Source: Jiangella mangrovi
GTDB taxonomy: Bacteria > Actinomycetota > Actinomycetes > Jiangellales > Jiangellaceae
DNA: 64,000 nt
Assembly (NCBI RefSeq): GCF_014204975.1
Contig: NZ_JACHMM010000001.1
Span: forward strand, 3,038,001-3,102,000
Direction of reading: 5' to 3'
This document shows positions 49,431 through 54,525 of the stretch, piece after piece (positions within the stretch are counted from its first letter, which is position 1; every line of letters starts with the position of its first letter). Below the pieces are notes generated by a model that saw nothing but the letters and a program-made list of their open reading frames with translations, was not told where the DNA came from and searched no databases. Both the position numbers and the translations under genes were made by a program.

Positions 49431-49697
49431 ATGATGCACGAGTTCGCCGCGGCGGGAGCGGCGCGCCCGCCACACGAGAACAGGCCCGGCACACCGGTCT
49501 TCGTCGACCGGCGTGGACGAAGACGCCGCTGGATGACCTACTGGGGCCTGCTGGTCGCCTGTCTGGGTCTGCTCTACGTCGCCCTGCTCACCGCGAGCCT
49601 GGCGGCCGAGCCCGTCCGGCCCGATCGATCGGAGCCGGCCGACGTGGGCCCGCCCGCCGATCTGGGCCCACCCGCCGGGGCGGACGCGCCCGAATGA
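49431..49697 (+). CDS. Small single-pass membrane protein opening the exopolysaccharide operon
   Basis: 88 residues from ATG 49431 (a second ATG follows directly; GGGGGGA upstream). A basic N-terminal half (DRRGRRRRW) precedes one membrane helix (YWGLLVACLGLLYVALLTASLA, about 37-58) and a short acidic, Pro-rich outside tail (PADVGPPADLGPPAGADAPE). Its stop overlaps the next start (ATGA). In size and place it resembles the small accessory subunits of synthase complexes (IcaD/PgaD), though no sequence match is claimed. Confidence 0.7.
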   Translation: MMHEFAAAGAARPPHENRPGTPVFVDRRGRRRRWMTYWGLLVACLGLLYVALLTASLAAEPVRPDRSEPADVGPPADLGPPAGADAPE

Positions 49698-51850
49698 CCA
49701 CCGTGCGCCGCGGACGCGGAGCCGCGCGCGCGACAGCGCCTCGCCTGCACTGGCTCCTGCTCAGCCTGATGCTCGTCGTCCTCGCCGTCGTGCTGCTGGT
49801 GAACGGCCTGGTCATGGCGCAGTTCGGGGCCGACCACCGGGTCGCGGCGCCGACGGACGCGCACACCGTCCCGGATGTCGTGCGGGCCGGCCGGCCGATC
49901 ATCGACCTGCGCCACGGCACGGCCCGGACCCTGCACGTCCCCGACGGCACCGTGGTGCTGACCTTCGACGACGGTCCGGACGCGGTCTGGACGCCCCGCA
50001 TCCTCGAGGTGCTGGAACGCCACCGCGTGCCCGCCACGTTCTTCGTCGTCGGCAACCTCGCGGCGCAGCGGCCGGACCTCGTCCGCCGCATCCACGACGC
50101 CGGCGGCGAGCTGGGCATCCACACGTTCACCCACCCCGACCTCGCCTACGTGCCGGCGTGGCGGCGCGAGCTCGAGCTCTCGCAGACCCAGCTGGTCGTC
50201 GCCGGCGCCGCGGGCGTGACGTCGACGCTGGTGCGCCCGCCGTACTCGTCGGCGGCCGAGGCGATCGACGACATCAGCTGGCCGTCGGTCCGCGACCTGG
50301 GCCGCACCGGCTACGTCACGGTGCTGACCACGCACGACACCCAGGACTGGTCCCGGCCGGGCGCCGACGAGATCGTCCGCCGGGCCATCCCCGAGGACGG
50401 CGCCGGCGGCGTGATCCTCATGCACGACGCGGGCGGCGACCGGTCGCAGACGGTCGAGGCGCTGGACCGGCTCATCCCGGAGCTGCGCGCCCGCGGCTAC
50501 CGGTTCGGCACCGTCGGCGACGTCGTCGGCGAGCCGGTGACCGTGCCGGCCGACCCGTCCGAGCGGCTGCGCGGCGACACCCTGCTGATCCTGGTGCGCG
50601 GCGCGACGGCGGCGACGTCGGTGCTGGCCGTCCTGGTGGGCGTGACCGGCGCGCTGGTCATCTCGCGGCTGCTGCTGCTGGTCGTGCTCGCGCGCCGGCA
50701 CGCGCGGCAGGGCTCGTCGTGGGGCCGCTCCGCCCCCGTCCGCCCGCCGGTGACCGAGCCGGTGTCGGTGATCGTGCCCGCCTACAACGAGGAGGCTTGC
50801 GTCGCCCGGACGGTCCGGTCCCTGGTCGCCAGCGACCACCCGGTCGAGGTGATCGTCGTCGACGACGGCTCCACGGACGCGACCGCCGAGGTCGTCCGCG
50901 GGCTCGGGCTGCCCGGCGTGACGGTGTTCCGGCGGCCCAACGGCGGCAAGCCGGCGGCGCTGAACACCGGGATCGCGCAGGCCCAGCACGACCTCATCGT
51001 CATGATGGACGGCGACACCGTGTTCGCCCGCGACACCGTCCGCCGGCTCGTGCAGCCGTTCGCCGACCCGGGCGTCGGCGCCGTCGCCGGCAACGCCAAG
51101 GTGGCCAACCGGTCCGGCGTCCTGGGCGCCTGGCAGCACATCGAGTACGTCGTCGGGTTCGCCATCGACCGCCGCGCCTACGACGTGCTCGAGTGCATTC
51201 CGACGGTGCCCGGCGCGGTCGGAGCCTTCCGGCGGCGCGCGCTCTGGGGCGCCGGCGGCGTCAGCTCCGACACGCTGGCCGAGGACACCGACCTCACCAT
51301 GGCGATCTCGCGGGCCGGCTGGCGCATCGTGTACGAGCCGGAGGCCGTCGCGCGCACCGAGGTCCCCACCGACCTCGGCCAGCTCTGGCGGCAGCGGTAC
51401 CGGTGGAGCTACGGGACCATCCAGTCGATGTGGAAGCACCGGCGGGCCGTCCTCGAGCCCGGCCGGGCCGGCCGCTTCGGCCGCCGCGGCATCCTGCACC
51501 TGGCGCTGTTCCAGGTCGCGCTGCCGCTGCTGGCGCCACTGATGGACGTGTTCCTGATCTACGGTCTGCTGTTCCTCGACCCGGTGCGCACGGTCCTCGG
51601 CTGGCTGGCACTGGTGCTCAGCCAGCTGGTGGCCGGCGCCTACGCGTGCCGGCTGGACGGCGAGTCGATGCGCGGGCTGTGGCTGCTGCCGCTCCAGCAG
51701 CTGGTGTACCGGCAGCTCATGTACGCCGTCGTGATCCAGTCGATCGTCACCGCGCTGGTGGGGATCCGGCTGCGCTGGCAGAAGCTGCGGCGCATCGGGG
51801 AGGGCGCTGATGCGCGCGATGCGCCAGACGTGGTGAGGGCCGGGCGATGA
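49694..51850 (+). CDS. Fused polysaccharide deacetylase and family 2 glycosyltransferase
   Basis: 718 residues from ATG 49694. A membrane anchor (LLLSLMLVVLAVVLLVNGLV, about 19-40) leads to a NodB deacetylase domain: TFDDGPD (90-96), HTFTHP (143-148), RPPYSS near 180 and LMHDAGGDRSQT near 243. A second helix (VLAVLVGVTGALVISRLLLLVVLA) precedes a GT2 domain: VPAYNEE (about 361-367), DDGST (about 390), MMDGDT (437-442), EDTD (531-534) and RQRYRW (567-572), then two or more C-terminal helices. It would synthesise and N-deacetylate a beta-linked hexosamine polymer, the work of IcaA and IcaB, in one chain. Confidence 0.92.
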   Translation: MTTVRRGRGAARATAPRLHWLLLSLMLVVLAVVLLVNGLVMAQFGADHRVAAPTDAHTVPDVVRAGRPIIDLRHGTARTLHVPDGTVVLTFDDGPDAVWTPRILEVLERHRVPATFFVVGNLAAQRPDLVRRIHDAGGELGIHTFTHPDLAYVPAWRRELELSQTQLVVAGAAGVTSTLVRPPYSSAAEAIDDISWPSVRDLGRTGYVTVLTTHDTQDWSRPGADEIVRRAIPEDGAGGVILMHDAGGDRSQTVEALDRLIPELRARGYRFGTVGDVVGEPVTVPADPSERLRGDTLLILVRGATAATSVLAVLVGVTGALVISRLLLLVVLARRHARQGSSWGRSAPVRPPVTEPVSVIVPAYNEEACVARTVRSLVASDHPVEVIVVDDGSTDATAEVVRGLGLPGVTVFRRPNGGKPAALNTGIAQAQHDLIVMMDGDTVFARDTVRRLVQPFADPGVGAVAGNAKVANRSGVLGAWQHIEYVVGFAIDRRAYDVLECIPTVPGAVGAFRRRALWGAGGVSSDTLAEDTDLTMAISRAGWRIVYEPEAVARTEVPTDLGQLWRQRYRWSYGTIQSMWKHRRAVLEPGRAGRFGRRGILHLALFQVALPLLAPLMDVFLIYGLLFLDPVRTVLGWLALVLSQLVAGAYACRLDGESMRGLWLLPLQQLVYRQLMYAVVIQSIVTALVGIRLRWQKLRRIGEGADARDAPDVVRAGR

Positions 51851-54015
51851 CCGTCGTCGTCCCCGAGCGCGAGCGGTACATCGACGTGTACCGCGCGGTC
51901 GCGCTGGTCAGGGTGATGATCTACCACCTGGCCGGCTGGGCCTGGCTGTCGATCGCCTTCCCCGCCATGGGCGTGATGTTCGCCGTGGCCGGCTCGCTGA
52001 CGGCGCGCTCGCTGCAGCGCCGGCCGGCGTTCGACGTGGTCGCCGGCCGGCTGCGCCGGTTGCTGCCGCCGCTGTGGCTGCTCGGCGCCGTCGTCGTGAC
52101 GGGCATGATCATCGTCGACGGCGGCAGCCTCGGCGCCGTCGTGGGCCGGTGGCGCGAGCTGATCCACTGGATCGTGCCGGTGGCGGACCCGCCGGGCGAC
52201 GTCGCGGCCGGTGGGGGCAGCTGGGCCGAGAACATCGTCGCGCCGCTCTGGTACGTGCGCGCCTACCTGTGGTTCGTGCTGCTCTCGCCGCTGCTGATGT
52301 GGGCGTTCCGCCGGTGGCCGGTGCGGACGCTGCTGGTGCCGCTCGTCGTCGTGGCGGCCGCCGGGACCGGGCTGGTGGACCTGGAGGCCCTCGGCGCGCC
52401 GGGCGACGCCGTCCGCGACTTCGCCACGTACGGCGCCTGCTGGCTGCTCGGCTTCGCGCACCGCACCGGGCAGCTGCGCCGGCTGCCGCTCGCGGCCGCG
52501 GTGGCGGTCGCGGCCGCCGCGATGGCCACCGGGCTGTGGTGGGCGCTGACGCACCCGTCCGAGGACTTCGGCTACGACCTCAACGAGATCCCGCTCGCGC
52601 AGGCGCTCTGGTCGCTGGGCGTGGTGCTGCTGCTCCTGCGCTGGGCGCCGCCGATGGGCGGGGTGGACCGCGTGCCCGGGCTCGGCCGGCTGGTCGACTT
52701 CATCACGGCGCGCGCCGTGACCCTCTACCTGTGGCACAACCCGGCGATCGACCTCGCCTGGGTGCTGTGCGAGCGGGCCGGGGTGTCCGCCGTCTGGGCG
52801 GCGGGCCTCGTCGCGGCGGCACTGACGCTGCTGGCCACCATGCTGTTCGGCTGGGCCGAGGACCTCGCCGCGCGGCGGCCGGTGCGGCTGCTCCCCGGGC
52901 TGCTGCGGCGCCGGGCCGCGACCCGCCGCCCGGTGGGGGCGCGCGCCATCGGCCTGGTGTTCGGCCGGGTCGGGCTGACCGCGCTCGCCGCCGTCGTGCT
53001 GGCCTCATGGGTGACGGCGCCCGCGGCGGACCGCACGCCGGTGGCGTCGGACCGGCCCTGGACCGTGAGCGCCTACCTCGTCCCGTGGGACCTCGACCGC
53101 GGCCTGGCCTCGCTGCCCGCCGCCGCGGGACCGCTGAGCGCCGTCAGCCCCGTCTGGTACACGCCCGCCGACGACGGCGCCCTCGTGCGCAACGACGACT
53201 CGCCCGTCGAGCCGGTCGCGGCCCGGGTGCGGGCGCTGGACCTCGACGTCGTGCCGTCCATCAGCAACTTCCGCTCGGGTGAGTGGGACGCCGAGCTGGT
53301 CCGCCGCCTGATCGGCTCGCCGGCCCTGCGGTCCGCGCACGTCTCGGCGATCGCCGAGACGGCCCGCGACCAGGGCTGGGACGGCATCGACATCGACTAC
53401 GAGGCGCTGGAGCCGGCCGACTACGCGGCATTCGGGGTGTTTCTGAACGACCTGGCCGCGGCGCTGCACGCCGACGGACGTCGCCTGACGGTGGCGCTGC
53501 CGGCCGGGACGGCGGCCGACCGGCCGGAGCTGGCGCGCCTCTACCGGCTGGCCGGCGCCGTGGTCGACGAGGTCCGGGTCATGGCCTACGACTACGCCTG
53601 GGAGGGCTCCGGACCGGGCCCGATCGCACCCGTCGACTGGGTCGAGGACGCCGTCGCGCACGTCGTGACGTACGTGCCGCGCGAGCGGGTCGTGCTCGGC
53701 CTGGCGGCGCACGGGTACGACTGGCCGGACCCCGGCTCCGGCGCCGAGGGCGGCGGTCAGGACCTCATGTACGCCGACGCGATCGCCGTCGCCGAGGAGC
53801 ACGGGCGCGAGGTGCAGTGGAGCAACGACGCCCAGACCCCGTGGTTCTCCTATGCCGACGACGACGGCCAGGTGCGCGCCGTCTGGTTCGAGGACGCGCC
53901 TAGCCTCGCCGCCAAGCTCGAGGTGGCCGCCGAGCAGCGGCTCGGCGGCGTGTTCCTCTGGCGTGTGGGCGGCGAGGACCCGACGCTCTGGGACGTCCTC
54001 GACGACGCCCCCTGA
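51847..54015 (+). CDS. Fused acyltransferase-3 membrane domain and family 18 glycoside hydrolase
   Basis: 722 residues; the ATG overlaps the previous stop. Residues 1-375 are an acyltransferase-3/OafA-type membrane domain with about ten helices, opening with RYIDVYRAVALVRVMIYHLAGW (the His is conserved). Residues about 400-722 are an exported GH18-like domain with WDGIDIDYEAL, whose catalytic box is complete (DGIDIDYE, 512-519), followed by VRVMAYDYAWEGSGPG and GVFLWRVGGEDP. It would O-acylate or export the polymer and hydrolyse it outside the cell. Such a fusion is uncommon. Confidence 0.9.
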   Translation: MTVVVPERERYIDVYRAVALVRVMIYHLAGWAWLSIAFPAMGVMFAVAGSLTARSLQRRPAFDVVAGRLRRLLPPLWLLGAVVVTGMIIVDGGSLGAVVGRWRELIHWIVPVADPPGDVAAGGGSWAENIVAPLWYVRAYLWFVLLSPLLMWAFRRWPVRTLLVPLVVVAAAGTGLVDLEALGAPGDAVRDFATYGACWLLGFAHRTGQLRRLPLAAAVAVAAAAMATGLWWALTHPSEDFGYDLNEIPLAQALWSLGVVLLLLRWAPPMGGVDRVPGLGRLVDFITARAVTLYLWHNPAIDLAWVLCERAGVSAVWAAGLVAAALTLLATMLFGWAEDLAARRPVRLLPGLLRRRAATRRPVGARAIGLVFGRVGLTALAAVVLASWVTAPAADRTPVASDRPWTVSAYLVPWDLDRGLASLPAAAGPLSAVSPVWYTPADDGALVRNDDSPVEPVAARVRALDLDVVPSISNFRSGEWDAELVRRLIGSPALRSAHVSAIAETARDQGWDGIDIDYEALEPADYAAFGVFLNDLAAALHADGRRLTVALPAGTAADRPELARLYRLAGAVVDEVRVMAYDYAWEGSGPGPIAPVDWVEDAVAHVVTYVPRERVVLGLAAHGYDWPDPGSGAEGGGQDLMYADAIAVAEEHGREVQWSNDAQTPWFSYADDDGQVRAVWFEDAPSLAAKLEVAAEQRLGGVFLWRVGGEDPTLWDVLDDAP

Positions 54016-54032
54016 CCGCCGGCCAGCCGGTC

Positions 54033-54525
54033 CGCCCGCGACGGTGGGGCATCACTGCCGGATCCGTGTGGCGTAGCTGTCGTTGGGGCGACAGTTGTGC
54101 CACACCAATCGCGCAGCAACGCCGCACCGTTCCGGCGCGGCCCGGTGGGCAGGTCCGCCATGATCATCCAGGATGGTTGGCGTCCTGACCCACTGATCCT
54201 GGATCGTTTCGCCGATGGCGGGGTTCGCCCGCGACGGTGGGGCATCACTGCCGGATCCGGGTGGCGTAGCTGTCGTTGGGGCGACAGTTGTGCCACACGA
54301 ATCCCGCAGCAATGCCACACCGATCGCGCAGCAATGCCGCACCGTTCCGGCGCGGCCCGGTGGGCAGGTCCGCCATGATCATCCAGGATGGTTGGCGTCC
54401 TGACCCACTGATCCTGGATCGTTTCGCCGATGGCGGGGTTCGCCCGCGACGGTGGGGCATCACTGCCGGATCCGTGTGGCGTAGCTGTCGTTGGGGCGAC
54501 AGTTGTGCCACACCAATCGCGCAGC
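54033..54525. repeat. Tandem repeat, 2.4 copies of a 193/215-bp unit
   Basis: Units start with the same CGCCCGCGACGGTGGGGCAT block at 54033, 54226 and 54441. Unit 1 is 193 bases, unit 2 is 215 bases, and unit 3 stops after 85. Unit 2 differs by an extra 22-base internal duplication around GCAGCAATGCCACACC and a few substitutions. Each full unit holds a hairpin (see next entry) and an ATCCAGGAT...ATCCTGGAT inverted repeat. The 529-base gap has no credible gene. Near-identity shows recent duplication. Confidence 0.92.
54066..54105 (+). terminator. Hairpin within tandem repeat unit 1 (also in units 2 and 3)
   Basis: GTGTGGC (54066-54072) pairs with GCCACAC (54099-54105) and CTGTCG (54077-54082) with CGACAG (54089-54094). 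The four positions between pair as G.U, U.G, A-U and G.U in plus-strand RNA, giving a continuous 17-bp stem with a TTGGGG loop. The wobbles break on the other strand. It begins 51 bases after the exopolysaccharide operon and may terminate it. Confidence 0.6.

Follow-up and report, generated by a model that had tools for sequence, protein, structure and literature searches.

A mat-type operon of Jiangella mangrovi with an acyltransferase-GH18 fusion

Three overlapping genes and their domains

The window analyzed here is a stretch of 64,000 nucleotides from the genome of Jiangella mangrovi, which is assembled as one contig of 7.16 Mb. Towards its end lie three plus-strand genes. The first (49431..49697) encodes a MatA-like small membrane protein of 88 aa, recognized from its translation, a family alignment and the signature PVFVDRRGRRRR, which starts at residue 22. 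The second (49694..51850) encodes MatB, a 718-aa protein in which a CE4 deacetylase is joined to a membrane GT2 synthase (Pfam, NCBIfam and translation). The third open reading frame (51847-54015; 722 aa) consists of an AT3 acyltransferase domain with an 11th helix (approximately residues 1-395; 51847..53031; Pfam, alignments and structural model) and a GH18 domain of the SleL/YdhD type (approximately residues 401-722; 53047..54012; Pfam, PDB sequence search, motif, tree and fold search). As the original prediction had read from the DNA, neighboring genes share ATGA start/stop overlaps on the plus strand, at 49694-49697 between genes 1 and 2 and at 51847-51850 between genes 2 and 3.

That prediction had also assigned the activities of IcaA (GT2), IcaB (CE4), an IcaC-like protein (AT3) and a hydrolase to the operon, and all four domains were recovered by Pfam. 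The second protein matched Polysacc_deac_1 at 104.7 bits and GT2 models at up to 129.5 bits, and the third matched Acyl_transf_3 at 95.2 bits and Glyco_hydro_18 at 88.5 bits, all above the curated cut-offs (29.6 bits for GH18); the joining of AT3 and GH18 on one chain is a real fusion. In the translation of MatB we could read TFDDGP, HTFTH and RPPY, which we take to be the CE4 motifs, and DDGSTD, DGDT, EDTDL and QRYRW, presumably those of GT2. Judged by residues, these and the AT3 and GH18 motifs described below all appear functional. The identical three-gene set was found in four further genomes, with third-protein identities of 78, 62, 60 and 61% (nearest named relatives: J. endophytica, 78%, and J. 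asiatica, 62%), and the operon is therefore not an artefact of a single assembly.

Directly 3' of the operon lie two copies of a 215-bp tandem repeat (54098-54525; 97% matches) and a partial third copy (54029-54119). Parts of the repeat match 24 further places in the genome, many of them at approximately repeat positions 58-107. Since plus- and minus-strand matches overlap at three of these places, this stretch of the repeat seems palindromic and REP-like.

Operon type and likely product

Searching with two AT3 peptide patterns yielded 79 AT3-relative loci, a sample that AT3 forms without those patterns escape and in which some loci are short contigs. CE4, GT2 and AT3 occurred together in 30 of the 79 loci (hereafter mat-type loci), with CE4 and GT2 in one open frame in 30/30 and the order CE4-GT2-AT3 kept on one strand in 29/30 (the exception being L075). 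The fused deacetylase-GT2 protein, singled out as special in the original prediction, is consequently the ordinary arrangement, and one such protein, from Kocuria, already bears the annotation 'bifunctional polysaccharide deacetylase/glycosyltransferase family 2 protein'. The remaining 49 loci had neither a CE4 nor a GT2 match at 1e-5 in the stretch; many of the AT3 relatives in these 49, including L074, L078 and L081 from Actinoplanes and relatives, have C-terminal extensions of 50-225 aa.

In J. mangrovi the CE4-GT2 fusion is directly followed by the AT3 gene and directly preceded by the MatA-like gene. By gene content and sequence the operon is of the mat type, composed of a MatA-like membrane protein, MatB and an AT3 acyltransferase, and most of it is an operon type that has been described before. 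The Streptomyces mat locus has the same gene order (SCO2963 matA, SCO2962 matB, SCO2961 AT3), with the same CE4-GT2 fusion, AT3 downstream and small membrane protein upstream, and in four Streptomyces loci (L068, L083, L095, L113) the upstream small protein carries the signature PVFVDxxGRR, as in Jiangella. The two differ in the tail of the small protein, which is much longer in Streptomyces MatA, and in the acyltransferase, which in the mat loci of Streptomyces, Micromonospora and Saccharomonospora has no GH18, unlike in Jiangella. The available text of two papers describes matA as encoding a membrane protein without known domain, matB as CE4-GT2 and SCO2961 as an AT3 protein termed icaC-like (PMC5972031, PMC4391728), and an IclR regulator is reported to adjoin the mat locus (PMC4391728). 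A further established comparison is staphylococcal icaADBC, which has GT2, CE4 and AT3 activities for PNAG in common with the Jiangella operon. There the genes are separate and include IcaD (PMC4391728), whereas Jiangella has a CE4-GT2 fusion, a MatA-like small protein and an additional hydrolase.

In S. lividans and S. coelicolor, MatAB makes PNAG, as demonstrated with antibody F598, dispersin B and periodate (PMC5972031). Because the Jiangella operon matches the Streptomyces mat locus in both order and sequence, the PNAG-like product named in the original prediction fits, and by this analogy such a polymer would be a well-supported product for Jiangella. The best NCBIfam match of the MatB GT2 domain was PgaC_IcaA (TIGR03937) at 180.3 bits, below the 422.3-bit cut-off of that model (PgaC_IcaA 180 bits versus MftF 105 and NodC 89).

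The small protein and the one-piece synthases

The 88-aa protein consists of the signature, one hydrophobic helix and a short proline-rich tail, and had no Pfam or NCBIfam match above cut-off. Across Streptomyces, Micromonospora and some Saccharomonospora the MatA signature reads P-V/I-F-V/L-D-x-x-G-x-R; it leads into a hydrophobic helix and then a tail that varies and is often rich in proline. The family alignment shows signature (PVFxDxxGRR) and helix conserved in the Jiangella proteins, whose tail is short. A simple pairwise estimate gave an omega of 0.10 over residues 18-60, indicating purifying selection, and of 0.40 over the tail. Of 35 mat loci, 24 have the signature 5' of the CE4 match, all of them among the 29 for which 1000 nt or more of upstream sequence were available. 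This compares with 32 matches in the 3.4 million six-frame residues of all loci sampled for this count, and a chance motif was rejected. It was absent despite at least 1000 nt upstream in L059, L120 and L128 (Saccharomonospora), L075 and L188, and also in six loci with shorter upstream sequence (L060, L065, L066, L077, L079, L190).

The same signature opens GH18-CE4-GT2 synthases of other phyla that are made in one piece. It is exact at the N-terminus of L176 (from the actinobacterial genome G190), L207 (Novosphingobium) and L212 (Sphingomonas), and exact but 5' of the annotated start in L211 (Sphingobium). Near forms occur at the N-terminus of L208 (Deinococcus) and 5' of the annotated start in L210 (Sulfitobacter), and only a degenerate form is found in L209 (Prevotella). 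In Kocuria (L214) the signature precedes a CE4-GT2 chain without GH18. A GH18 domain above the Pfam cut-off was present in L176, L208, L209 and L212; L210 and L211 gave no GH18 at 1e-5 in the Pfam scan, which covered these six. For L213, a Streptomyces plasmid match, only the CE4-GT2 part aligns with the one-piece enzyme. Apart from L176, these examples are the 8 retrieved among 25 listed plasmid matches; the one-piece enzyme was covered to at least 80% in 20 of 67 matching plasmid records, and in the actinobacterial set only G190 had a one-piece match (1 of 396 genomes). The annotated starts of the synthase genes in L210, L211 and L214 omit all or part of an in-frame signature module directly upstream.

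The one-piece enzymes of Sphingomonas, Deinococcus, Prevotella and one actinobacterial genome thus contain the same three catalytic domains as the Jiangella operon, behind an N-terminal module of VFxD..GRR plus helix that resembles the small protein (degenerate in Prevotella). Unlike in Jiangella, all their domains are on a single chain, and no acyltransferase is annotated alongside in five annotated stretches, some of which hold unnamed proteins. Since their N-terminal module carries the MatA signature, the small protein more probably represents a synthase module that has become detached than an IcaD. The original prediction of a small protein in the IcaD position accordingly stands for the position; a likeness to IcaD beyond it found no support, and the protein carries the MatA signature. 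The function of MatA is termed unclear in PMC5972031, whose authors liken its role to that of IcaD, and an IcaD-like function for the small protein may follow from their comparison. The kinship of the small gene with the synthase module is, as far as we searched, new.

Distribution of the AT3-GH18 fusion

The original prediction had proposed a domain-architecture search for how often AT3 and GH18 are combined, and in the genomes sampled the combination was rare. It was found in five distinct genomes, four of Jiangella (the J. mangrovi genome itself, G005, G007 and G008) and a MAG of the same family (G016), corresponding to 5 of 60 relatives with the J. mangrovi genome counted. Three of the 30 mat-type loci, and hence 3 of the 79 AT3-relative loci, carried it; these three are taken to represent G005, G007 and G016 and add no further genomes. 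Among 396 genomes of the phylum, a match over both domains was found only in the J. mangrovi genome (two candidates were scored per genome, and misses are possible), and no plasmid record covered 80% of the AT3-GH18 protein (29 matched in part). These counts led us to reject the idea that the fusion is common. A search for further AT3-GH18 proteins in the J. mangrovi genome was likewise negative, as only three GH18 places were found there, the other two of which both lie within a 943-residue frame distant from every AT3 match.

Within the genus, 4 of 12 genomes (J. mangrovi counted) have the fusion, and the same four are the only ones with a full-length MatB match, the operon being absent from the other eight; this suggests that the operon is gained and lost as a whole. 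In the sampling used, the fusion was confined to Jiangella and one MAG from its family. Among the best matches of the larger literature result lists, titles and abstract openings described no AT3-GH18 fusion, and this narrowly distributed fusion is new as far as searched.

The AT3 domain and the placement of GH18

The AT3 domain of the J. mangrovi protein has R16-X10-H27 in helix 1 and R68-X-X-R71 in helix 3, corresponding to the R-X10-H and RXXR motifs defined for the family (PMC9833829). R-X10-H is constant in a 21-row alignment (A3). One Jiangella fusion protein (L046; G008:C1:7483409-7485472) has an AT3 domain without R16 and H27 and an intact GH18 motif. Acyl transfer by the usual route therefore looks lost in that protein, which may be retained to anchor GH18 at the membrane, and the loss of the catalytic pair in one of five fusions counts against acyl transfer being essential.

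In the AlphaFold model of the AT3-GH18 protein, a helix at residues 374-395 follows the AT3 bundle and precedes the GH18 barrel; mean pLDDT was 82.9 and pTM 0.54, so that the arrangement of the domains is uncertain. From this model, GH18 is predicted to lie outside the membrane, behind the 11th helix of AT3. The layout resembles that of the AT3-SGNH proteins OafB and OatA, in which an 11th helix carries a C-terminal outside enzyme (PMC9833829); there the outside enzyme is SGNH, whereas in Jiangella it is a GH18 glycanase. The fusion partners of AT3 named in the available text of that paper are SGNH, alanine racemase and some eukaryotic domains, and GH18 is not among them (PMC9833829).

Catalytic motif, fold and ancestry of GH18

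The GH18 domain contains the catalytic motif DGIDIDYE (DxxDxDxE), ending in E519. Two omega estimates of 0.31 and 0.46, obtained by a simple pairwise method, indicate purifying selection. PDB sequence matches were YdhD and SleL, and the fold-search lists for the AT3-GH18 model comprised GH18 matches throughout (5jh8, Z 37.7, rmsd 2.2, 309 aligned residues; SleL 4s3k, Z 35.3, rmsd 2.8, 312 aligned).

A midpoint-rooted tree of 34 GH18 domains placed those of the fusions in one clade (support 100/100) within an 11-row set (support 97/96), inside which the order of branching is not resolved. The other six members of the set each lie beside a GT2, and five of these six come from the same family as J. 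mangrovi. Across 29 retrieved GH18 loci, a subset of all GH18 matches, a GT2 was found in the stretch of 11 (on the same strand in 9) and was missing from the stretch of 18. The most likely history, we infer, is the fusion, within this family, of a GT2-linked GH18 gene to a mat-operon AT3.

Distinct GT2 and GH18 gene pairs with no CE4 in the stretch occur in L048-L052, from the same family, and in L164. Their GT2s are 26-33% identical to the MatB GT2, and the GT2 of L049 matches PgaC_IcaA at 56 bits; an established name for these pairs was not found. On the Kocuria rosea plasmid (L214, 2506-5811), the CE4-GT2 gene adjoins an opposite-strand gene annotated as chitinase, whose product contains a DxDxE sequence and no Pfam domain at 1e-5.

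Proposed mechanism and alternative readings

Taken as a whole, the reading that we favor, with somewhat better than even confidence, is a mat-type operon for a surface polymer of the poly-N-acetylglucosamine (PNAG) type with a tethered GH18 that trims or releases the emerging chain. The GT2 domain of MatB would polymerize UDP-GlcNAc and thread the chain outward, where the CE4 domain would remove part of the acetyl groups, with the MatA-like protein placed against MatB as a membrane subunit. AT3, beside the MatB complex, would probably O-acylate the emerging chain, and GH18, held outside the membrane on the 11th helix, would trim or release the partly deacetylated polymer, a job comparable to that of the GH153 domain of PgaB in Gram-negatives. 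PgaB of E. coli and Bordetella (CE4 plus GH153) appears to be the closest functional parallel, as it likewise pairs PNAG deacetylation with a hydrolase outside the membrane and couples deacetylation with limited hydrolysis (PMC5933820). By the description in the available text, its GH153 domain is without the GH18 catalytic motif (PMC5933820), whereas the Jiangella hydrolase is a GH18 with a canonical motif on the AT3 chain.

That the substrate of GH18 is the polymer itself seems to us somewhat more likely than not. This is favored by the genomic company of GT2 and CE4 and by a phage depolymerase whose GH18 region is YdhD/YaaH-like and which degrades a Geobacillus capsule of undefined chemistry (PMC10131341). 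Against it, among solved structures with an assigned role, the nearest relatives are SleL, which lyses the spore cortex, and YdhD, a glycosylase of sporulation. No GH18 is known to us that cuts beta-1,6 PNAG, and none appeared in the two papers listed by a literature search. Also counting against the favored reading as a whole are the 27 of 30 mat-type loci without a GH18, the 8 of 12 Jiangella genomes without the operon, the 18 of 29 GH18 loci without a GT2 in the stretch and the PgaC_IcaA score below its cut-off.

The kinship with SleL instead favors peptidoglycan, and an enzyme tethered at the export site might open the wall locally for passage of the polymer. Such a role has a precedent in Streptomyces, where LpmP and CslZ are proposed wall openers for the CslA glycan (PMC9040799). 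The need for wall opening is, however, less clear in the Gram-negatives Sphingomonas and Prevotella, which have one-piece GH18-CE4-GT2 enzymes, and the best fold match by Z, 5jh8, is described as a chitinase only. In addition, 27 of the 30 mat-type loci manage without a GH18, either fused or in the locus, such that GH18 seems dispensable for the pathway. Considering both sides, we regard wall opening as unlikely, while giving it serious weight.

GH18 enzymes act mostly on beta-1,4-linked GlcNAc, and GH18 could also be an ordinary chitinase-like editor of a beta-1,4 product resembling chitin or chitosan, a reading that agrees with the CE4 domain of MatB being nearest to peptidoglycan and chitin deacetylases (NCBIfam and further search). 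The CE4 of Streptomyces MatB is likewise nearest to deacetylases of these types, yet its product is PNAG, and calcofluor staining of beta-1,4 glycan in Streptomyces was independent of matAB (PMC5972031). Together with a GT2 score approximately 90 bits higher on PgaC_IcaA than on NodC, this makes a beta-1,4 product improbable. Least credible is a non-catalytic GH18 that holds the polymer, as several chitinase-like binding proteins among the structural matches might suggest, given that all five fusions retain the complete DGIDxDYE motif.

Extending the polymer-trimming reading, the fusion GH18 and the GH18s of the one-piece synthases could be dedicated PNAG-trimming glycanases specific for (partly deacetylated) beta-1,6 PNAG. 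MatA would then be a synthase module that is detached in the mat operons of Actinomycetota and fused elsewhere, and five modules (signature helix, GH18, CE4, GT2 and AT3) would have been distributed in varying combinations over one, two or three chains. This is a tentative proposal, and we think it more doubtful than not.

Implications for polymer export in Jiangella

The shared signature gives MatA a testable role, that of a synthase subunit. Should GH18 cut peptidoglycan, the fusion would exemplify, in simple form, a polymer exporter with its own wall-opening enzyme. Were the tethered GH18 to cut PNAG, it would represent a new type of enzyme for dispersing PNAG biofilms, and Jiangella and its relatives would have a Gram-positive PNAG system with a chain-trimming hydrolase, as Gram-negatives have through PgaB.
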